Part shown: one piece after another, positions 222-30,851 of the stretch
How the letters are laid out: every line of letters starts with the position of its first letter
Position numbering within the stretch: the first letter of the stretch is position 1
Assembly (NCBI GenBank): GCA_003697105.1
Contig: RFFQ01000135.1
Span: forward strand, 1 to 34,535
DNA: 34,535 bases
Reading direction: 5' to 3'
Source: Gemmatimonadota bacterium
GTDB taxonomy: Bacteria > 4572-55 > J002
Program-made: the position numbers and the translations under genes
Notes under the pieces: model-generated
The model's input: the letters and a program-made list of their open reading frames with translations, nothing else
Database searches by the model: none
What the model was told of the DNA's origin: nothing

Positions 222-3200
222 CTATGGAGATTGGCACAAAGTTCGGTCTTCTGTGCTGACACGAGGGTTGTAGCGAAGATAATCTGCAACCCAATTACAT
301 CCCCATTCTAGCAACGCATCCAATCCGTCCTCTTTGCCCAGAGCGGGGTGTAGGATATTTTCTAAATTCCAAATTTTGACCTCATCTTCACTGGCAGAGG
401 CGATGGTCTTATTGTCGTTGCTGAAATTGATGTCCATGATTTTCGTATGATGTCCGGTAAATGTTGTCACTTTTTCCCCATTGGTTCGCCACAAAATGAT
501 TTGGTTATCCGTACTCGCGGAGATAATCAGGTTGCCATCAACACTGAACCCGACGCTGGTCACTTTGGATTGGTGACCGCGAAAGGTGCGAATGAGATTG
601 CCCTCCACATCCCACAACTGGATTTGATGGTTGACATTCCCCGTCAAGATATGACTGCCGTCTGGGCTGAAGGCAATTGCCGATAAACTCGTTTGGGGGT
701 CCCCAAATGAGCGGATTTTATCCCCCTTGATATTCCACAATGTGACATAACCATCCCAACCCGAGGCTGCAAGTATTTCACCGCTGGGATGAAAGGCAAC
801 ACCGGTCATTTCGTCGGGATGGATTAAGGTGCGGAGCAGTTTGCCCGTTTTGCTCCACAGTTTTATCGTCTGGTCAACACTGGCAGAAGCCATCAGGTTT
901 CCATCCGGGCTGAAAGCGACATCCCAAATCCAGTCCTGGTGCCCACTCAATGTTTTTAGCAGCTTGCCGGTGCGACTCCATATTTTCATGGTTTGATCTG
1001 CGGAAGCGGTGATGAGCTGGTCGCCGCTGGGACTGAATGTGACATGGTAAATCACATCTGAATGAGCTTGCCAGGATCGTAATGGTTTGCCGTTGGCTTC
1101 CCACAGTTGAACGACTCCTTGTTCGGTGGCAGTGGCGAGCCGGTTGCCATCGGGACTGAAAGTAACACTGGTTAAATGCGGTGTCTCCGGGAACAATCGG
1201 TTTTGTTCGGTTACTTCTGCGGCGAGTTCTTCCAACATCTGTTGAACCTTTTGTTGTAGCTCTAGGGGAATTTCGGCTTGCGAGAGCCGTTGTCCCGCCT
1301 TAATAGCGGCAATTAAGGCGCCGAGTTGATCCATGGCGTCACGGTGTTGCTTGGCTTGGTCTAATAATATCTTAATTTGTCCCTGTACCGCTAAATTCCG
1401 CTGTTCCTCCGCAATTTTTTTTTGCCGGAGGGCTTCTTGTTTGTTTTGAATGGCGATTTCGCGCTCTTGTTCGGCGATGGCTTTCTGCCGGAGGGCTTCT
1501 TGTTTGTTTTGAATGGCGACTTCACGTTCTTGTTCAGCGATGGCTTTCTGCCGGATGGCTTCTTTTTCGTTTGCCTCGGCGATTGCTTTTTGTTTGATGG
1601 CCTCTTGCTCATTGATGACGGCAATCTGCCGTTGCTTCACCGCTTCTGCTCGCTGGAACAGGGCAATAACCGCCAGACACGAGACGATGACCGCTACGGC
1701 GATCACGGCTCCCATCATAATTTTACGGCGTCGCTCTTTGGCACGGAAGGCGGCTTCAATAGCATCTTTGCTGGTTTGGATGAATTCCTTTTGGATGGCG
1801 GTGGGAGCAGGTGTTTTATGGTGCTCTATGGCTTCTGTCAGCCACATTTCTGCCGCCGTAAATTCCCGCCCGCGCAGGAGCAAATCCCGACTTTTTTCGT
1901 GGGCTTCCCATTCAATGGCGCGTTGCGACCACTTCGTATGGCTTTTCACATGTTCGCGATCGGTATCAAGCGTCCGTACCAATTCGCTGAATGCGGCTTG
2001 AAAATCGCCGCGACGGCTCTCAAAATCGATCCACTGTACCGATTTTAAGCCCTCCGGCAATCTATCCTGCTCCACGGAGCGATATAATACCGGAATAATC
2101 CGCTTATTTAACTTCTGGGCATATTCTACCTCTTCTACACAGAATTCCGATTCCACGGCATGGGGTGAAATCACAAAAACGATGTTGTCGGAGGATTCAA
2201 TCCCTTGAAAAATTTCACTTTGAAAATCCGACCCAAAATCGATACTTTCTTGATCGAACCAGGTGATTTTTCCTTGCAGTTGTAACTGCTCGTTGAGAAG
2301 GCGGCAAAAATCTCCATCCGCCCGTGAATAGGAGAGGAAAACATCCGCTGTCGTATCTGGGGGTTGGTTTTCACTCTCTTCGATGAATTCTTTATGGATC
2401 GGTAGCATCGGGTGGTCAGGGTGCTTATCCGCTAACCGTACCCATGCCTGAGCATTTTTGAGTTCATGTCCCCGTAATAAGATACCCGGATTTTTATTTT
2501 GGCGTTCCCAGCGTAACGCCTTGACCAACAGCATCTTATGTTGATAGTAATAATCCCGATCCCGGTGTAGTTCGTAAAGGAGTTTGTCGATACCCTTGTA
2601 ATAGGTTTCATCCGCATCATCTTCAGATTTGGGGAGAATATCAATAAATTGTACTTTTCGGATTTCGGGCGGCAGGGTGTTCAAGTCGGTGGGTGCCACC
2701 ACCAACATGATAATTCGTTTTTTCAATTGTGTCGCATAGGCTAATTCTTGTTGGCAATATTCGGATTCCAAAGAGTCGGGGGAGAGTAGAAAGACCACAT
2801 TGGTCGTTTCTTCAATTCCTTTGTTAATTTCTTCCTGAAATTCTACGCCGGTGCGGATATCGGTGAGGTTTGTCCAGACGGTCAGACTGTTGCGCATTAA
2901 GGATTGCTTGATCTTTTCCATCATTTCTGTATTCTGGGTGGAATAGCTCAAAAACACGTCTGTAACCAATCCTTGTGCATTTTTGATGCTCTCGGTGATG
3001 TACTCCGCATGGAGCAAGGTTGGTTCGCAGGGTGCTTGCTGGGTGTCAAAGCGTTGTTTTAACCACTTTTCCGCCTGAATCCGGTTTTCTCCAGTGAGTA
3101 AGTATTCGACGCGTTTTTGGTGCCGTTCCCAATAAAGCGCTTGGGTCAGGATTTGGGTATGCAACTTCACATAATCTTCATGCCGGTGCAAAAGTTCCAC

Positions 3201-3638
3201 AAGTCCTGAAAACGCCTGCTCGAAATTATCCACCGCTTCGTATTGATCTTGAGGTACCTCCGGATCGTACTTTTCGCGCATGTAAATCCAGTTGATCTTA
3301 CCAATTACCGGATGGATGCTGTCCCACAACCCTTCGGGTTCTACATGCAAAATGGGGATGATGCGCTTGTTACGCCGCACGGCTAATTCGATTTCTTTTA
3401 AGCAATATTCGGATTTCACCGAGTGCGGCGCTATTATGAAAATAAAATTATGAGCTTTTTCGATTCCATCATCAATCTGATTTTGAAAATCAACCCCCAA
3501 CGGGATGTCATTCTGATCAAACCAAACTTGGAAGCCACTTTCCTGCAACCGGTTGTGTAATTTCGTCGCAAATGCTTTGCTTTCTGCACGACCGTAAGAA
3601 ATAAACACATCATTATGCCCAATCAAATTTTCCATCAT
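222..3638 (-). CDS. Triple-TIR, single-membrane-segment, WD40 repeat protein
   Basis: 1138 residues. Three TIR domains start near residues 10, 227 and 431 (each opens with V-F-x-S-Y) and each is followed by a similar helical linker ending in an LL-x-G ... W-L ... P ... EFI/EYI pattern, so the TIR-plus-linker unit of about 210 residues was triplicated. All three keep a Glu three residues after a Cys (C79/E82, C295/E298, C500/E503), the place of the catalytic Glu in NAD-cleaving TIRs. A basic patch (R637-K639) precedes one hydrophobic segment (about 640-661), then a coiled coil with 21-residue repeats (about 664-760), then seven WD40 blades (about 820-1091) and a Cys-containing tail (GCNW, residues 1113-1116) that I have seen on other bacterial WD40 proteins. 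The first ATG sits behind AGAGGT with good spacing and overlaps the stop of the upstream pseudouridine synthase gene by 4 bases (ATGA). TIR proteins are often NADase or signalling effectors in defence; function here is inferred. No STAND NTPase domain is visible. Confidence 0.9.
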   Translation of the reverse strand: MMENLIGHNDVFISYGRAESKAFATKLHNRLQESGFQVWFDQNDIPLGVDFQNQIDDGIEKAHNFIFIIAPHSVKSEYCLKEIELAVRRNKRIIPILHVEPEGLWDSIHPVIGKINWIYMREKYDPEVPQDQYEAVDNFEQAFSGLVELLHRHEDYVKLHTQILTQALYWERHQKRVEYLLTGENRIQAEKWLKQRFDTQQAPCEPTLLHAEYITESIKNAQGLVTDVFLSYSTQNTEMMEKIKQSLMRNSLTVWTNLTDIRTGVEFQEEINKGIEETTNVVFLLSPDSLESEYCQQELAYATQLKKRIIMLVVAPTDLNTLPPEIRKVQFIDILPKSEDDADETYYKGIDKLLYELHRDRDYYYQHKMLLVKALRWERQNKNPGILLRGHELKNAQAWVRLADKHPDHPMLPIHKEFIEESENQPPDTTADVFLSYSRADGDFCRLLNEQLQLQGKITWFDQESIDFGSDFQSEIFQGIESSDNIVFVISPHAVESEFCVEEVEYAQKLNKRIIPVLYRSVEQDRLPEGLKSVQWIDFESRRGDFQAAFSELVRTLDTDREHVKSHTKWSQRAIEWEAHEKSRDLLLRGREFTAAEMWLTEAIEHHKTPAPTAIQKEFIQTSKDAIEAAFRAKERRRKIMMGAVIAVAVIVSCLAVIALFQRAEAVKQRQIAVINEQEAIKQKAIAEANEKEAIRQKAIAEQEREVAIQNKQEALRQKAIAEQEREIAIQNKQEALRQKKIAEEQRNLAVQGQIKILLDQAKQHRDAMDQLGALIAAIKAGQRLSQAEIPLELQQKVQQMLEELAAEVTEQNRLFPETPHLTSVTFSPDGNRLATATEQGVVQLWEANGKPLRSWQAHSDVIYHVTFSPSGDQLITASADQTMKIWSRTGKLLKTLSGHQDWIWDVAFSPDGNLMASASVDQTIKLWSKTGKLLRTLIHPDEMTGVAFHPSGEILAASGWDGYVTLWNIKGDKIRSFGDPQTSLSAIAFSPDGSHILTGNVNHQIQLWDVEGNLIRTFRGHQSKVTSVGFSVDGNLIISASTDNQIILWRTNGEKVTTFTGHHTKIMDINFSNDNKTIASASEDEVKIWNLENILHPALGKEDGLDALLEWGCNWVADYLRYNPRVSTEDRTLCQSP
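1424..1549. repeat. 63-bp tandem repeat inside the coiled coil of the TIR-WD40 gene
   Basis: Two near-identical 63-bp units begin at 1424 and 1487, and a more diverged third begins at 1550. They encode 21-residue units of the form RQKAIAEQERE-V/I-AIQNKQEAL at residues about 696-716 and 717-737. The repeat is in frame, so unit gain or loss would change the length of the coiled-coil stalk without breaking the gene. Confidence 0.85.
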
Positions 3639-24227: not shown

Positions 24228-27200
24228 ATGCCGACAGAACGTGAACGCTATTCCTCGTTATTTCAGTTCACAACTACACGTCCGGTCGCCGTATTGATGA
24301 TCACTGTGGCGGCGTTGGTTTTTGGCTGGGTTTCCTACCACCGGCTTTCGATGAATCTTATGCCGGACATTTCCTATCCTAGCTTGACAATCCGCACGGA
24401 GTATTCCGGTGCCGCTCCAGAAGAGGTGGAAACCGTCGTTTCCCGTCCGGTGGAGCAAGCTGTGGGCGTTGTGAGCAATTTGGTGGCGATGAGTTCGATC
24501 TCCAAAGCGGGGGTCTCCGATGTTGTCCTGGAATTCGGCTGGGATACCGACATGAATGACGCCACCCAAGATATCCGCGAGAAGTTGGATCAAGTATTTT
24601 TACCGGATGAAGTTGATCGCCCGTTAATTCTGCGATATGACCCCTCGCTGGACCCCATCTTGCGGCTGAGTTTGTACGGCGATAAAAATATGTTTACGTT
24701 GCGTCAGATTGCCGAGGATGAGATCAAGCGCTCGCTAGAAGGGACTCCGGGCATCGCGGCGGTGAAAGTCAAAGGAGGGTTGGAAGAAGAAATCCGGGTG
24801 GAATTGGATGAGACGAAATTGACCCTCTTGAAGCTCGATATTCAGCAGATCAACAACCGGTTAAGCGGGGAAAATGTCAACCTTGCCAGCGGGCTACTAA
24901 AAGAGGGTGAAACCGAATATCTGGTGCGTACCCTCAACGAGTTTCAATCCATTGATGATATTGGAGACCTAATTGTTGCCGTGCGCAACGATAAGCTGAT
25001 TCGCATCCGGGACATCGGGCGCGTCTATAAAACCAATAAACAACGGGAACTGATCACCCGCACCAACGGTCAGGAAAGTGTCGAGATCGAGATTTACAAA
25101 GAAGCCGATGCGAATATTGTGGCGGTGGCGGATAATGTGCGGGAAATGCTCTTTGGTAAAACGGGGATCGACAAAGCCACCGGTAAAACGGAAGCAGAAC
25201 TCAAGGCAGAAGCGGAAAAAGCAGAAGCACTTGCCACGAAAAAGCGCGGCAGAGGTGGGCAGCGGGGCGCTCCACCGCCCGGAATCGCCAAAAAAGCGGC
25301 ATGGGTTGACCAGCTAGACCCCGGCGTCACGCTGGAAATTGTCGCCGACCAATCCCGTTTTATCAAAAGTGCTATCCAGGAGGTCAAAAATACGGCAATT
25401 ATGGGCGGCATCCTGGCGGTGATTATCTTGTTTGTGTTTTTGCGCCGTCTGTCAAGCACCGTTATTATCGGGGTGGCAATTCCCATCTCAATTATTGTCA
25501 CGTTTGCCCCGATGAACATCTTTGATGTGACCCTCAATATTATGTCGTTGGGTGGGCTGGCATTGGGGGTCGGGATGCTGGTGGATAATTCTATTGTCGT
25601 GCTGGAGAGCATCTTTCGTTGCCGGGAAGAAGGGGATGACATTGTCGCCGCGGCGGTACGTGGCACGTCAGAGGTTGGGGGCGCCGTCTTCGCCTCTACT
25701 TTGACCACGATTTCCGTTTTTTTCCCGATTGTATTCGTCCAAGGCATTGCCGGACAAATTTTTGGGGATATGGCGCTGGTGGTGGTCTTTTCGCTTATGG
25801 CGTCTTTGCTGGTGGCACTCTTTTTAATCCCAATGCTGGCATCCCGAAATCTCGGTGAGGACACTCCCTTTACCCCAGAAGCCGGAGAACAACCCTCGTT
25901 CCGGCAACGCATCCAGTCGGCACCGATTTTCCGGTTTATCTCCACCTTGGATTTTCGCACAGACTTAGACCGGCATGTGTCATTATTTAACATCCCGCTT
26001 CGTTGGCTGCAAACGCTCCTGTTATTGCCGCTGGAGTGGCTCTTTAAGCTCCTGATTCTCTTCTTATCCGCTATTTTGGTACTGCTGAAAGGGAGTATCA
26101 CCTTTCTGCTAGGGCTATTCTATCCGCTTCTTTTCAGATTGCCGTATTACCGCTTGCGAGAGCAGGACGATCATTTTTCGGTTATCGAAGCCTATGCTTT
26201 AGCGGATCAATTTTTTACACTGAAAATCAGCCATGCCGTTCTTCCTAAGCTCCTTTGTTTTGATTCGATTTTGACCTACACGTTGCGGATGCGTCACTTT
26301 TTTAAGAGTTTTGCAGGGCGCCGTTTGGGATGGCAGGTTTTGCAAGGGCTGTTTACTCCGTTCGCCCTGATCTATTTTACCCTTCAATTTGGGTTGTTGC
26401 ATCTGTTTCAGATCGGAGTGAAACTGATTCAATTGATCGGCGTAGGGGTTGGGGTCATACTAATGGGGGCTTTTTGGTTGGTATTACTGGTACTTATGCC
26501 GGTGATGGGTATCATTTTAGGACTGTTTTTACTGATTTTTGGTGCCATCGAGCGAGCCTATCCGCGGTTGCTCAAATGGTCACTTCACCATTCCTTCACC
26601 GTACTCATGTTAGCGGTGCTCCTGCTGGCAGTTTGCTGGTTTTATTATCTGCCCCAAATTGGCTCGGAGCTGATTCCCCAAGTACATCAAGGTGAATTCA
26701 CGGTGGAGATCGAACTCCCCGTTGGGTCTCCACTGGAACAAACAGACCGCAAAATTCAGCCAGTTGAGGCGCGCCTGAACCAGATCGAAACCGTGCAGAG
26801 CATTATTACCACTATCGGTGCAGAACGGAGTACCGATGCGGACTCCGATAAAGGGGAACATACGGCGGAATTACTGGTGCGGCTTAAACCCAGTTTAAAT
26901 GTCGCTCAAACCGAAACCGCTACAATTCGTCGCATCCGCGAAGAATTGGCTAATTTCGCTGGAATATCGGTCAAAATTACGCCCCCGGAATTATTCAGCT
27001 TTAAAGCCCCGATAGAGGTGGAACTGAAAGGATACAATCTGGATATTCTACGGCGTCTCAGTGATCGCATCGCGGAGAACCTGAGCCAGATCGATGGGTT
27101 GACCGACGTCAAAACGTACCTTCAATCCGGCAATCCAGAAGTGCAGATTGTCTATGATCGCGAACGGTTAGCAGCGTATGATCTGGATATTTACGCGGTG

Positions 27201-28064
27201 GCATCGCTGGTCAAAAACAAAGTTCAGGGTGATGTACCAACGCGCTACCGTGACGAAGAAGAACGGATCGATATTTTGGTGCGAGCCGTGGATGCCGAAA
27301 CGGCTACGCTCGAACAACTCAGGCGGATCATCATCAATCCGGGCGCGGAAGTGCCTCTGCCGTTGGAAGCCGTCGCCACAGTGCTTATCCGGGAAGGTCC
27401 CAGCGAAATCCGGCGAGTAAGCCAGCAACGCACCGCGCTGTTGACGGCAAATGTCAACGGGATTTCGCTCAGTGATGCGACCCAACGGATCGAACACGCG
27501 CTTGCCCGTGTGGAAATGCCGCGCAATTTTACCTATGAAATCACCGGGCAACAGCGCGAAATGCAAACCTCCTTGGATAGCTTACTCTTTGCGCTCGCTT
27601 TGGCGATTTTCCTTGTTTACGTGGTGATGGCGTGTCAATTTGAGTCGTTATTGCACCCGTTTGTGATTCTGTTCAGTATGCCACTCGCGGTCATTGGGGT
27701 GATTCTTGCCCTCGCCTGGACGGGTACTTCATTTAGCGTCGTGGTGTTTATTGGGTTCATTGTTCTGGCGGGAATTGTAGTCAACAATGCGATTGTGCTG
27801 GTTGATTATATCAATCGTTTGCGCGGGCGCAACCTAAGCAAAATGGAGGCGATCATTCAAGCCGGTAAGGTTCGCTTGCGTCCCATTTTGATGACGACGG
27901 CGACGACGGTACTCGGTCTCCTGCCGATGGCGTTGGGTTTCGGAGATGGTGCGGAAATCCGCACACCGATGGCACTAACGGTCATTGCCGGGTTACTCAG
28001 CTCAACTCTATTGACCTTGCTGATTATCCCCACCGTTTACGCCGTCTTTGATCGCGGAAAATAA
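24228..28064 (+). CDS. RND-family efflux permease with a large hydrophobic insertion
   Basis: 1278 residues, about 230 more than AcrB-type permeases. The N-terminus (FTTTRPVAVLMITVAALVFG, NLMPDISYP, GAAPEEVE), the TM4 motif GMLVDNSIVVLES (D453; the second Asp of AcrB is Asn) and the C-terminal half (FIVLAGIVVNNAIVLVDYI, RLRPILMT) are typical of the hydrophobe/amphiphile and related RND groups. Two insertions stand out: a charged, Ala/Lys/Gly-rich stretch (about 308-363) in the first periplasmic loop, and about 230 residues (543-773) with several hydrophobic segments between TM6 and TM7. Substrate unknown. No membrane-fusion (HlyD-type) or TolC-type partner is adjacent. It begins 64 bases after the histidine kinase. 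Confidence 0.9.
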   Translation: MPTERERYSSLFQFTTTRPVAVLMITVAALVFGWVSYHRLSMNLMPDISYPSLTIRTEYSGAAPEEVETVVSRPVEQAVGVVSNLVAMSSISKAGVSDVVLEFGWDTDMNDATQDIREKLDQVFLPDEVDRPLILRYDPSLDPILRLSLYGDKNMFTLRQIAEDEIKRSLEGTPGIAAVKVKGGLEEEIRVELDETKLTLLKLDIQQINNRLSGENVNLASGLLKEGETEYLVRTLNEFQSIDDIGDLIVAVRNDKLIRIRDIGRVYKTNKQRELITRTNGQESVEIEIYKEADANIVAVADNVREMLFGKTGIDKATGKTEAELKAEAEKAEALATKKRGRGGQRGAPPPGIAKKAAWVDQLDPGVTLEIVADQSRFIKSAIQEVKNTAIMGGILAVIILFVFLRRLSSTVIIGVAIPISIIVTFAPMNIFDVTLNIMSLGGLALGVGMLVDNSIVVLESIFRCREEGDDIVAAAVRGTSEVGGAVFASTLTTISVFFPIVFVQGIAGQIFGDMALVVVFSLMASLLVALFLIPMLASRNLGEDTPFTPEAGEQPSFRQRIQSAPIFRFISTLDFRTDLDRHVSLFNIPLRWLQTLLLLPLEWLFKLLILFLSAILVLLKGSITFLLGLFYPLLFRLPYYRLREQDDHFSVIEAYALADQFFTLKISHAVLPKLLCFDSILTYTLRMRHFFKSFAGRRLGWQVLQGLFTPFALIYFTLQFGLLHLFQIGVKLIQLIGVGVGVILMGAFWLVLLVLMPVMGIILGLFLLIFGAIERAYPRLLKWSLHHSFTVLMLAVLLLAVCWFYYLPQIGSELIPQVHQGEFTVEIELPVGSPLEQTDRKIQPVEARLNQIETVQSIITTIGAERSTDADSDKGEHTAELLVRLKPSLNVAQTETATIRRIREELANFAGISVKITPPELFSFKAPIEVELKGYNLDILRRLSDRIAENLSQIDGLTDVKTYLQSGNPEVQIVYDRERLAAYDLDIYAVASLVKNKVQGDVPTRYRDEEERIDILVRAVDAETATLEQLRRIIINPGAEVPLPLEAVATVLIREGPSEIRRVSQQRTALLTANVNGISLSDATQRIEHALARVEMPRNFTYEITGQQREMQTSLDSLLFALALAIFLVYVVMACQFESLLHPFVILFSMPLAVIGVILALAWTGTSFSVVVFIGFIVLAGIVVNNAIVLVDYINRLRGRNLSKMEAIIQAGKVRLRPILMTTATTVLGLLPMALGFGDGAEIRTPMALTVIAGLLSSTLLTLLIIPTVYAVFDRGK

Positions 28065-28102
28065 CGTGAGCAGTTTGCAGGGGGTAGTTTTCAGTGTACA
28101 AA

Positions 28103-28198
28103 AACTCCCAAACTCATAAAACTCACGAACTCCCAAACTCATAAAACTCCCAAACTCCCAAACTCCCAAACTCATAAAACTCATAAACTCTCAAACTC
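28103..28198. repeat. Array of 12 AACTC units directly before birA
   Basis: AACTC occurs at 28103, 28111, 28120, 28128, 28136, 28145, 28153, 28161, 28169, 28178, 28186 and 28194, that is at steps of 8 or 9 bases. Units alternate between AAACTCCC and AAACTCAT forms. The array fills the space between the RND gene and birA and ends two bases before the birA ATG, leaving no Shine-Dalgarno sequence. On the other strand it reads as GAGTTTGGGAGTTT, a GT-rich simple repeat. Confidence 0.85.
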
Positions 28199-28200
28199 AA

Positions 28201-28929
28201 ATGGAAATAAAAAAGTATAAATCGGTGACTTCGACCAATGATGTGGCGAAAGAACTCGCCCGAAGTGGTGCCGCAGAATGGACGGTTGTTCTGGCGAACG
28301 AACAAACGGGCGGGCGAGGGCGTAAAAATCGGGTATGGTATTCCCCGCCGGATGTGGGGTTGTGGTTTTCGGTTATCTTGCGACACCGCATTCCGGTGAT
28401 TGATGCCGCTAAAATCGGTCTTGTAACAGCGTTAGGGGTGGCGAATACCCTGCGTAGTGAACTCAGTTTGGCGGCACAGATTAAGTGGCCCAATGATGTG
28501 TTGATCGGACAACGTAAGGTCTCCGGCATTTTGTTGGAATCGATTTCATCAGGGGGCAAATTGGAGGCACTGATTGTTGGGATAGGGATCAATGTCAATC
28601 AGACGGCATTTCCAGAACCTATCGCTCAGACCGCTACCTCCTTGCGTTTGGAGTTGAACCGGATTGTCCCGCGGGACATCCTCTTGCCTCGTTTGCTGGA
28701 AGAATTACAACGCCAATTTGACCGGTTTCGACAGGGTAACTTTCATCATCAGATGCGTGAATGGCGGCGCTTATGCCCCATGCTGGGCAAACCGGTTACC
28801 CTTCATACCACTGGGGGGAATATTACAGGTACTGCCGTCGATGTGGGTGATGAAGGTGCGCTGATTGTGCGCAAACCGGATGGAGTACACCTGCGTTTCT
28901 TTGCCGGTGATGTCAGTATCTCGTTGTGA
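28201..28929 (+). CDS. birA: Biotin-[acetyl-CoA carboxylase] ligase, monofunctional
   Basis: 242 residues. It begins at the catalytic domain (SVTSTNDVAKELA) and lacks the N-terminal helix-turn-helix of repressor-type BirA, so it is probably ligase only. The biotinyl-5'-AMP loop GGRGRKNRVW (37-46) and KWPNDVLIG with the catalytic Lys K95 are present, as is the C-terminal SH3-like domain (GTAVDVGDEGALIV). It activates biotin with ATP and attaches it to the carboxyl carrier protein. The ATG follows the AACTC array with no ribosome-binding site; the STN motif close to the N-terminus makes a much later start unlikely. The next gene starts 10 bases after its stop. Confidence 0.93.
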   Translation: MEIKKYKSVTSTNDVAKELARSGAAEWTVVLANEQTGGRGRKNRVWYSPPDVGLWFSVILRHRIPVIDAAKIGLVTALGVANTLRSELSLAAQIKWPNDVLIGQRKVSGILLESISSGGKLEALIVGIGINVNQTAFPEPIAQTATSLRLELNRIVPRDILLPRLLEELQRQFDRFRQGNFHHQMREWRRLCPMLGKPVTLHTTGGNITGTAVDVGDEGALIVRKPDGVHLRFFAGDVSISL

Positions 28930-28939
28930 AAGGCGCAGA

Positions 28940-30187
28940 ATGAGAGAGGAAGGCTTTATTACAACGAACGTGTTCGTTGGAGTGATCCTTTTGATCCTGA
29001 TGGGGGGCCTCGGAAGGGTAACGGCGGATGATTTTGATCGCCAAATTCAGGATCAGACCCGAAAATTAGACCGCATCGCTCAAGAACTCCAAAAAAAACG
29101 AGCCGAACGGAAATCTTTACAACATCAGGAAGCCGGTATTTTGGCGCAACTTCGTGCTAGTGAGGAAGAACTGGAACTCACGGAGACCTATCTGAAAGCA
29201 TTGAATACCCAAGAAGACCAATTGCAGCACCGGATCGAACTCACCACGCGGGAACTCGCCGCCGCAGAATCATTACTTGCCTATCGCCAGCAAATTTTAG
29301 AACGCCGTTTGGTCGAAATTTATAAGTTTGGAAAATATAATCCCCTCGAAGTGCTGTTGACGGCAAATTCCTTCACGGATATGATCGAACGCTATCGTTA
29401 CATGCAACTTATCGCCGCCCAAGACCGGGCGCTGTATAATGAGATTGAGGCACAAAAACAGGTGGTGGCGGCACGAAAAACCGAGTTGGAACACCAACTG
29501 ACCGAACTTCAGCGAACCATTGACCTCAAAGTGGCGGAAAAAGCCACATTGGAGCAAGAACGGGAGCGCCGGAAAGCTCTATTACAGAAGATTCGCACCC
29601 AAAAAAATAGCTACGAGCGCGCCATCCGCGAGTTGGAACAAGCCCAACAAGAAGCGCAAAAGATCATCGACCAACTCATTGCCGAACGAGAACGGCAACG
29701 CGCCGCTGCGGCAAAAGCACACGCTACAGATGATCTTTCCCTCGGCCCAGATTCCAAATTGCCTGAACGCAGTGGAAACCACTATTTTGATAAACAGCGG
29801 GGGAAAATCAACTGGCCCGTGCAAGGTAAGTTGCTCAAAAAATTTGGGCGAGAAAAACACCCTCGCTTTGGCACAGAAACGTTTAATCAGGGTATCCAAA
29901 TTCAGGCGGAAGCCGGTACGCCTATCCGGGTGATTGGGGACGGCGAGGTGATTTATCGCAGTGTTTTACGGGGATATGGCAAATTTTTGATTGTCGATCA
30001 CGGAGAGGGATACTATACTCTTTATGCCCATTGCCAATCCATTGAAGTGGAAATTGGACAAATCGTACACCGGGGAGACCGGATTGCCACCGTAGGCGAA
30101 ACCGGTTCAATAGGGGGTCCCAGCCTCTATTTTGAAATCCGTTCCTTTGGTGAACCCGTTGACCCGTTGTTGTATCTGAAACGTTAA
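28940..30187 (+). CDS. envC: EnvC-like murein hydrolase activator (degenerate LytM/M23)
   Basis: 415 residues from the chosen ATG. An N-terminal hydrophobic signal segment (about 11-29) is followed by long coiled coils (about 32-260) and a C-terminal LytM/M23-fold domain (about 288-412). Zinc and catalytic residues of active M23 peptidases are missing: the HxxxD site reads N316-x-x-x-Q320 and the HxH site reads S395-L-Y397; only H364 (YAHC) remains. That is the EnvC pattern, in which the domain activates amidases at the septum without cutting peptidoglycan itself. The frame is open 25 codons upstream inside birA, but AAAGG lies 6 bases before this ATG and the signal sequence begins here. FtsEX and the amidase partner are not in the window. 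Confidence 0.9.
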   Translation: MREEGFITTNVFVGVILLILMGGLGRVTADDFDRQIQDQTRKLDRIAQELQKKRAERKSLQHQEAGILAQLRASEEELELTETYLKALNTQEDQLQHRIELTTRELAAAESLLAYRQQILERRLVEIYKFGKYNPLEVLLTANSFTDMIERYRYMQLIAAQDRALYNEIEAQKQVVAARKTELEHQLTELQRTIDLKVAEKATLEQERERRKALLQKIRTQKNSYERAIRELEQAQQEAQKIIDQLIAERERQRAAAAKAHATDDLSLGPDSKLPERSGNHYFDKQRGKINWPVQGKLLKKFGREKHPRFGTETFNQGIQIQAEAGTPIRVIGDGEVIYRSVLRGYGKFLIVDHGEGYYTLYAHCQSIEVEIGQIVHRGDRIATVGETGSIGGPSLYFEIRSFGEPVDPLLYLKR

Positions 30188-30206: not shown

Positions 30207-30851
30207 ATGACTATCGATCTTTCTGAATTACGCCGGGTATATTCTGAAAACCCATTGACAAAAGCGGATGTGGACCCAAATCCATTCTGCCAATTTCGCC
30301 GCTGGTTCGGCGAAGCCCTCCAAGCGGATTTTTATGAACCGAATGCGATGGTTCTCTCGACGGTCTCTGCGGAAGGTAAACCGTCTGCCCGGACGGTATT
30401 GTTGAAAGGGTTTGATGAGCGCGGATTCGTTTTTTACACCAATTACCATAGCCGGAAGGGGCGCGAATTAGCCCAAAATCCCTATGTTGCCCTGACCTTT
30501 TATTGGGATGTGTTGGTGCGGGATATTCGGATTGAAGGGAAGGTGGAAAAAGTTCCACCGGAAGTCTCCGATATGTATTTTCAAAGCCGCCCACGAGGGA
30601 GCCAGTTGGGGACATGGGTATCCAATCAGAGTGAAATTATCGAAAGCCGCCAGGTACTCCTCGACCGGTTACAGCAATTGGAGGTACAATACGCAGATGC
30701 TCCGATTCCCCGACCCCCTTATTGGGGCGGTTACCGGGTGTCTCCAACAGCTTTTGAATTTTGGCAAGGCGGCGAAAACCGGCTCCATGACCGGATTTTG
30801 TACACCTTGACGGATGATGGCGTCTGGACAATCGCACGGTTAGCGCCCTAA
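30207..30851 (+). CDS. pdxH: Pyridoxamine 5'-phosphate oxidase
   Basis: 214 residues, the usual family length. FMN- and substrate-binding strings are intact: ARTVLLKGFDERGFVFYTN (61-79), SRKGRELAQNP (82-92), RIEGKVEKV (108-116), YFQSRPRGSQLGTWVSNQS (124-142) and the C-terminal FEFWQGGENRLHDR. It oxidises pyridoxine or pyridoxamine 5'-phosphate to PLP with FMN and oxygen, so the cell meets oxygen at least at times. GGAG precedes the ATG. It lies 19 bases after the envC-like gene and abuts the next gene without a gap. Confidence 0.96.
   Translation: MTIDLSELRRVYSENPLTKADVDPNPFCQFRRWFGEALQADFYEPNAMVLSTVSAEGKPSARTVLLKGFDERGFVFYTNYHSRKGRELAQNPYVALTFYWDVLVRDIRIEGKVEKVPPEVSDMYFQSRPRGSQLGTWVSNQSEIIESRQVLLDRLQQLEVQYADAPIPRPPYWGGYRVSPTAFEFWQGGENRLHDRILYTLTDDGVWTIARLAP

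Follow-up and report, generated by a model that had tools for sequence, protein, structure and literature searches.

Why does a biotin ligase gene (birA) start two nucleotides past a tandem array of short repeats, with no Shine-Dalgarno (SD) sequence in front of it? The question arises in a Gemmatimonadota genome of 4.18 Mb in 199 contigs (GCA_003697105.1), where birA is separated from an acrB-type gene by a 136-nt gap that holds 12 AACTC units. The window, i.e. the whole stretch of DNA analyzed at this locus, comprises 34,535 nt of contig RFFQ01000135.1. The features around the gap are as follows.

24228..28064, + strand: AcrB/D/F-type RND transporter gene, upstream (Pfam PF00873)
28065..28102, + strand: rest of the gap, 38 nt (cgtgagcagtttgcagggggtagttttcagtgtacaaa), from the acrB-type stop to the first AACTC (sequence, by eye)
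28103..28198, + strand: array of 12 AACTC units with linkers of 3 or 4 nt (sequence; family and boundary comparison)
28201..28929, + strand: birA-type biotin ligase gene, starting 2 nt past the array, without SD (Pfam PF03099, PF02237; homologue alignment)
28940..30187, + strand: M23/PcsB-type (EnvC-like) gene behind birA (Pfam PF01551, PF24568; gene call)
30207..30851, + strand: pdxH-like (PNPOx) gene (Pfam PF01243, PF10590)

The array is as the first-pass annotation had described it: the units follow one another at steps of 8, 9, 8, 8, 9, 8, 8, 8, 9, 8 and 8 nt, the last ends 2 nt upstream of the birA ATG at 28201, and the 20 nt preceding this ATG (tcataaactctcaaactcaa) contain no SD. The assignment of the three genes as biotin ligase, envC-like and pdxH was borne out by Pfam in each case. 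With at most one mismatch, AAACTCNNAAACTC occurs nine times in the window, eight of them inside the array, compared to 0.21 expected from shuffles, so that the array is not explained by chance; it also contains higher-order periods of 17, 25 and 33 nt. A birA start well downstream, with a ribosome-binding site of its own, had been named as the result that would speak against this description. Instead, the alignments with BirA homologues from genomes G010, G002 and G015 start at BirA residues 2, 3 and 4, respectively, and the + strand of the array contains no ATG, GTG or TTG, which makes the start at 28201 plausible. Words resembling cagtgtacaaa were seen by eye left of several other arrays, as in the birA gap. 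Elsewhere in the window, a tandem 63-bp unit (1419-1572; 2.4 copies, 91% match) lies within a long ORF on the - strand (222-3638) and is probably a protein repeat.

The birA array is one of many. Genome-wide, AAACTCNNAAACTC has 109 matches, compared to a single match for the reversed control pattern, and at least 47 arrays with three or more units were identified in 44 stretches (43 fetched stretches and the window), with at least one more at C150; the earlier guess that the GAGTTTGGG form belongs to a dispersed family was thus correct. Of these 47 arrays, 11 are no more than 20 nt away from a contig end and may be longer than the lengths read. In the class relative G001, no AACTC array was detected, its two isolated pairs being the same as for the reversed control, and the three-unit pattern was present in 3 of 60 genomes, this genome counted among the 60. 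Two arrays of this genome are associated with unusual reading frames: at L077 (C121:1-420), a 64-aa ORF of no known family lies between GAGTT and AACTC arrays, as if another passenger of inverted arms, and at L083 (near C160:24900), a predicted ORF seems to run through the entire array, which would encode its C-terminal tail. In Prevotella-type loci (including L096-L098, L100, L105, L114 and L115), AAACTCCY arrays often follow a conserved word resembling TATTGTCTA or TATCGTCTA, perhaps an element end.

When read in the AACTC orientation, the arrays stop preferentially at gene boundaries on one side. Of the 40 arrays with a known right flank, 22 have their right end no more than 3 nt from a coding boundary, compared to 2 of the 41 left ends with a known flank (Fisher p = 5 × 10−7); for distances of up to 25 nt, the counts are 37/40 vs. 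10/41 (p = 2 × 10−10), with the genes of this genome taken from a home-made codon-score caller. In other genomes, a boundary is found no more than 10 nt from the right end in 25/104 arrays and from the left end in 4/99 (115 stretches among the matches listed). The polarity is not absolute, given that one array shows the reversed orientation at the start of a cyanobacterial gene (ruvA by eye). A further rule, whereby arrays would be G-rich outward on both sides, had been suggested by head-to-head arrays (L260, L263, L269) and was rejected: among 40 arrays whose left segment could be measured, the value was above zero in 18 and below zero in 21.

The right ends face starts in 20/40 arrays and stops in the other 20/40. 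The arrays are therefore not a start-codon signal as such, and a role in translation initiation is inapplicable at half of them. Among the 20 start-facing arrays, 11, including that of birA, leave only 0-4 nt before the nearest in-frame start, in each case without an SD; taking the nearest in-frame ATG or GTG as the start biases these distances towards short values, and with the caller's own starts, 10/20 are within 3 nt. Seven of the 20 end 10-22 nt from the start, five of these with an SD by script, and two have no nearby start (137 and 226 nt); at L078, an SD was recognized by eye ahead of an ATG further on. Of 177 ATG starts sampled across the genome, 97 are preceded by an SD (10% in shuffled sequences) and 80 are not; no match to 16S rRNA was found in the genome, and thus the SD scoring is not referenced to the host's anti-SD. 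A start without an SD is, by this count of 80/177, ordinary in this genome. The claim of the first-pass annotation that the array replaces the ribosome-binding site of birA accordingly holds in that birA has no SD, but many genes lack one in any case, and five start-facing arrays (six by eye) end just 5' of an SD.

These observations bear on the possibility that the repeat is regulatory, i.e. a binding site or spacing device before starts that is tuned by the number of units, as suggested by the first-pass annotation from the birA array read in one genome and, for its own repeats, by the paper on TAACTGA repeats (PMC4679880, consulted in part). The RNA of the array and the first birA codons is predicted to be almost unstructured (-1.0 kcal/mol vs. 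-4.9 kcal/mol in shuffles), unusually so for a leader, which is consistent with such a role, as is the abutment of 11/20 start-facing arrays (10/20 with the caller's starts) on the start codon. However, half of the arrays face stop codons, starts without an SD are common anyway, and no sigma-70-like promoter was found in 27900-28400; we consider a regulatory repeat improbable. The available passages of PMC4679880, the nearest description of such arrays, report that in Beggiatoaceae, cyanobacteria and Bacteroidetes, dispersed, intergenic TAACTGA direct repeats end a few nucleotides from starts, usually without an SD, whereas in some sets an SD follows 2-25 bp past the repeats. Of the 170 sets, 147 are directed at starts and 12 at stops. 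Similarly, birA and ten other start-facing arrays are 0-4 nt from the start and none has an SD. Unlike the TAACTGA repeats, the AACTC arrays have another motif and a period of 8 or 9 compared to 7, and face starts and stops in equal numbers (20/20 of 40), with no predominant orientation toward starts.

The genes that adjoin some of the arrays point to a different origin, namely, as the simplest account of the observations taken together, that the array in front of birA is the one arm left over from a selfish, IVS-like element of the S23/IVP type, dispersed in the genome and living in gaps between genes. We lean, if only slightly, towards this reading. The S23 family (PF05635), termed functionally uncharacterised and related to Avd in the consulted parts of PMC11270868 and PMC10053308, is present in 115 of 290 genomes and has three matches in this genome, two of which adjoin an AACTC/GAGTT array; the chance that a random gene is so close to an array is roughly 0.6% per gene. 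At C49, an intact S23 gene, with 2GSC and 2RLD as solved relatives of its protein, has a GAGTT array directly upstream and no downstream arm before the contig end. At C101, a degraded S23 gene is preceded by 32 GAGTT units, the first of them 1 nt away from a stop codon, and followed by only two AACTC units that adjoin a start codon (lplA by eye). The third gene, at C113, has no array within 3.3 kb. The class relative G001, which has no arrays, has no PF05635 match either. Among the 115 array stretches outside this genome, S23 was found in only three, in two of them about 120 nt or less from the array. In G055, an S23/IVP gene between livH and livM (by eye) is framed by GAGTT and AACTC arrays, the right one of which lies inside the S23 ORF and codes its C-terminus. 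At L369, L375, L382, L383 and L285, the right arm codes the last S23 residues (e.g. ...NSILNSDS), so that arm and gene overlap.

Most arrays have no such neighbour. Within 450 nt of the 47 arrays, S23 remnants were detected only at L054 and L072 (2/47); none is present near the birA array, and there is no GAGTT partner arm to its left. That there are only three S23 genes for at least 47 arrays counts against the solo-arm reading. The same excess speaks for the main rival, a self-spreading microsatellite exploited by S23 elements: slippage, template switching and gene conversion would generate an autonomous repeat and disperse it through non-coding DNA, selection would halt its growth at coding sequences or an SD, and S23 elements would land in or acquire the repeats. 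We rate it as a serious but somewhat doubtful possibility. Other simple-repeat families fill gaps likewise (TTAGGGATTAGG, 23 matches; AAGGATGAAGG, 98 matches), units seem to have been duplicated within the birA array, judging from its 17-, 25- and 33-nt periods, and arrays end at an SD or at the codon, all of which would fit. By itself, however, a microsatellite leaves unexplained the one-sided polarity at stop codons, as well as two observations described below, the complementary flanks of S23 genes and the retention of one arm together with an S23 fragment at a site where other records have no insertion.

Among the other repeat families of this genome, arrays of TTAGGGATTAGG are found head to head with arrays of CCTAATCCC, with no gene between them, at L260 (14436-14550), L263 and L269; they could be arms-only elements belonging to a different motif family. 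At L274, L276, L277, L279 and L281, whole gaps are filled by GAAGGATGAAGG arrays, often from the stop codon on (TGA followed directly by AGGATG); this family has 98 matches genome-wide.

To compare the two flanks of S23 genes, the 250 nt following each gene were reverse-complemented and aligned with the 200 nt preceding it. Of the 41 S23 loci fetched, 34 were used, these being high-scoring matches and not a random sample; seven (L288-L294) were dropped as the gene was not located by motif. Inverted complementarity with z > 3 was observed for 20/34 S23 genes, compared to 8/34 in the direct orientation, 4/99 mock positions, 1/149 sample genes and 1/34 neighbouring genes. An RNA-duplex variant of the test gave z < −3 in 13/33, and 8-39 pairs between the flanks were predicted in 12 folded elements (at least 29 in nine of them) vs. 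0, 10, 22 and 24 in four control genes. Neither the S23 loci of this genome nor that of G055 passed the inverted-arm test (L283, z = -0.8, with a downstream flank of only 98 nt; L286, 0.9; L285, -0.8). Upstream flanks are G-rich in 32/34 S23 genes vs. 19/49 control genes; downstream flanks show no C-richness beyond the control (18/34 vs. 30/49). The arm motifs differ from genome to genome: a pattern derived from the arms in G145 and G225 has 224 and 23 matches, respectively, in these genomes and none in eight genomes without S23, and the G141 arm pattern has ten matches, eight at its S23 gene and two elsewhere.

Plasmids provide the comparison of occupied and empty sites. S23 was detected in 26 plasmid records, of which 24 are cyanobacterial; a phage collection yielded no S23 match. 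Eight of the 26 records were fetched and seven gaps were read, the two Calothrix plasmids representing one context. An upstream repeat arm is present in 7/7 gaps and a complementary downstream arm, by eye, in 6/7 (weak in Anabaena 90); in Calothrix, the downstream arm is inside the next annotated gene. The plasmid elements sit between protein genes, at stop/start junctions. At a site in a conjugation operon, represented by 12 records, seven records show no extra length, three contain the full element, one a relic and one arms only (7/12 were read base by base and the rest judged by span). The full elements add 428, 428 and 414 nt, the 14-nt length difference between near-identical elements being one arm unit; arms can thus change length, which is a point in favour of a repeat tuned by unit number. 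The relic, in Nostoc C052, consists of one arm and 36 S23 codons (75% identical), and the arms-only copy is a hairpin in Brasilonema. GTAA, which contains the upstream stop codon, is found by eye at both ends of the full element at this site, and TTCTA at both ends at a second plasmid site; such possible short target duplications are not evident at the other sites.

Four further plasmid sites have empty counterparts, with a gene spacing of -1 to 3 nt at three of them and 52 nt at one, where an arms-only copy exists as well. Calothrix NIES-4105 has no S23 between nrdB and nrdA, and Dolichospermum has none between cas6 and cas4, but a different 245-nt gap. It was only at plasmid sites that an insertion present in one relative was seen to be missing from another. 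Two plasmid elements at unrelated sites are 78% identical over 419 nt. In two cyanobacteria, a plasmid-borne CRISPR-Cas locus (L366 and L370; type I-D in Anabaena 90) carries S23 between its cas6 and cas4 genes; given that the repeat arms differ, these are probably separate insertion events. A telomere-like fusion of ends had been entertained as an origin of the arrays and was dropped because the plasmid sites show simple insertions. The mobile S23 element itself is well supported, and the S23 connection, which goes beyond the interpretation in the first-pass annotation, is likely.

How do these elements relate to known systems? Passages of PMC4990558 describe intervening sequences (IVS) of 23S and 16S rRNA as an S23p (PF05635) ORF bordered by complementary terminal sequences, sporadic in distribution and termed selfish or parasitic, and report that a 28-bp terminal stem of one such IVS is cut by RNase III in vitro. 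The elements described here share with rRNA IVS the S23 ORF with complementary borders and the sporadic distribution; unlike them, they are located between protein genes, have simple-repeat arms that differ by genome, and decay to solo arms. The birA array itself lies outside an rRNA gene, in the acrB-type/birA gap, with neither S23p nor a complementary terminus; elsewhere, S23p accompanies 2/47 arrays and complementary termini 20/34 S23 genes. MITEs and Correia-type miniature elements are short and non-coding, with inverted arms. The arms-only plasmid copies resemble both (for MITEs, see the passages in PMC4853749). The difference is that here the arms are tandem simple repeats and the full element encodes S23 in place of a known transposase; no mobility enzyme was identified. 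Cyanobacterial short tandemly repeated repetitive (STRR) sequences are dispersed, intergenic arrays of the heptamer type. Arms resembling STRR are carried by S23 elements on cyanobacterial plasmids, and a link between STRR and S23 is proposed here, from no previous paper. The main text of PMC4679880 makes no mention of S23, and PMC10053308, as far as consulted, describes Avd of diversity-generating retroelements as structurally related to PF05635 proteins. In the open-access literature, mostly titles and abstracts, we found no account of S23 genes in operon gaps with repeat arms, which is weak evidence of novelty, and nothing on such arrays under telomere-like repeats, octamers or small dispersed repeats.

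The origin of the birA array from an S23 element, the way in which such an element moves, the fate of its arm stem and any influence on birA are inferred. A complete element would consist, between an upstream stop codon and the next start codon, of a G-rich simple-repeat arm, the S23 ORF encoding a four-helix bundle, and the complementary arm. It would enter at stop/start junctions, and the arm stem could be excised by RNase III, as in rRNA intervening sequences. After loss of S23 and one arm, the other arm would persist as an array occupying the gap as far as a start codon, SD or stop codon. At birA, the remaining arm would form an unstructured, G-poor leader without an SD, and translation would probably rely on the lack of leader structure.

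More generally, S23-coding mobile elements would be a widespread class of intervening-sequence elements beyond rRNA, residing at operon stop/start junctions with genome-specific arms, and many intergenic short-repeat arrays (AACTC, perhaps TAACTGA and the cyanobacterial arrays) would be their solo arms, a generalization that we regard as evenly poised. If the generalization is true, contact with a start codon would, on its own, be poor ground for calling an array a regulatory leader. In that case, moreover, the plasmid sites of culturable cyanobacteria would allow a direct comparison of empty, full and decayed states, the S23/IVP family would gain a setting in mobile elements that reside in the gaps between genes, and one origin would be available for the dispersed short tandem repeats reported piecemeal across several phyla.
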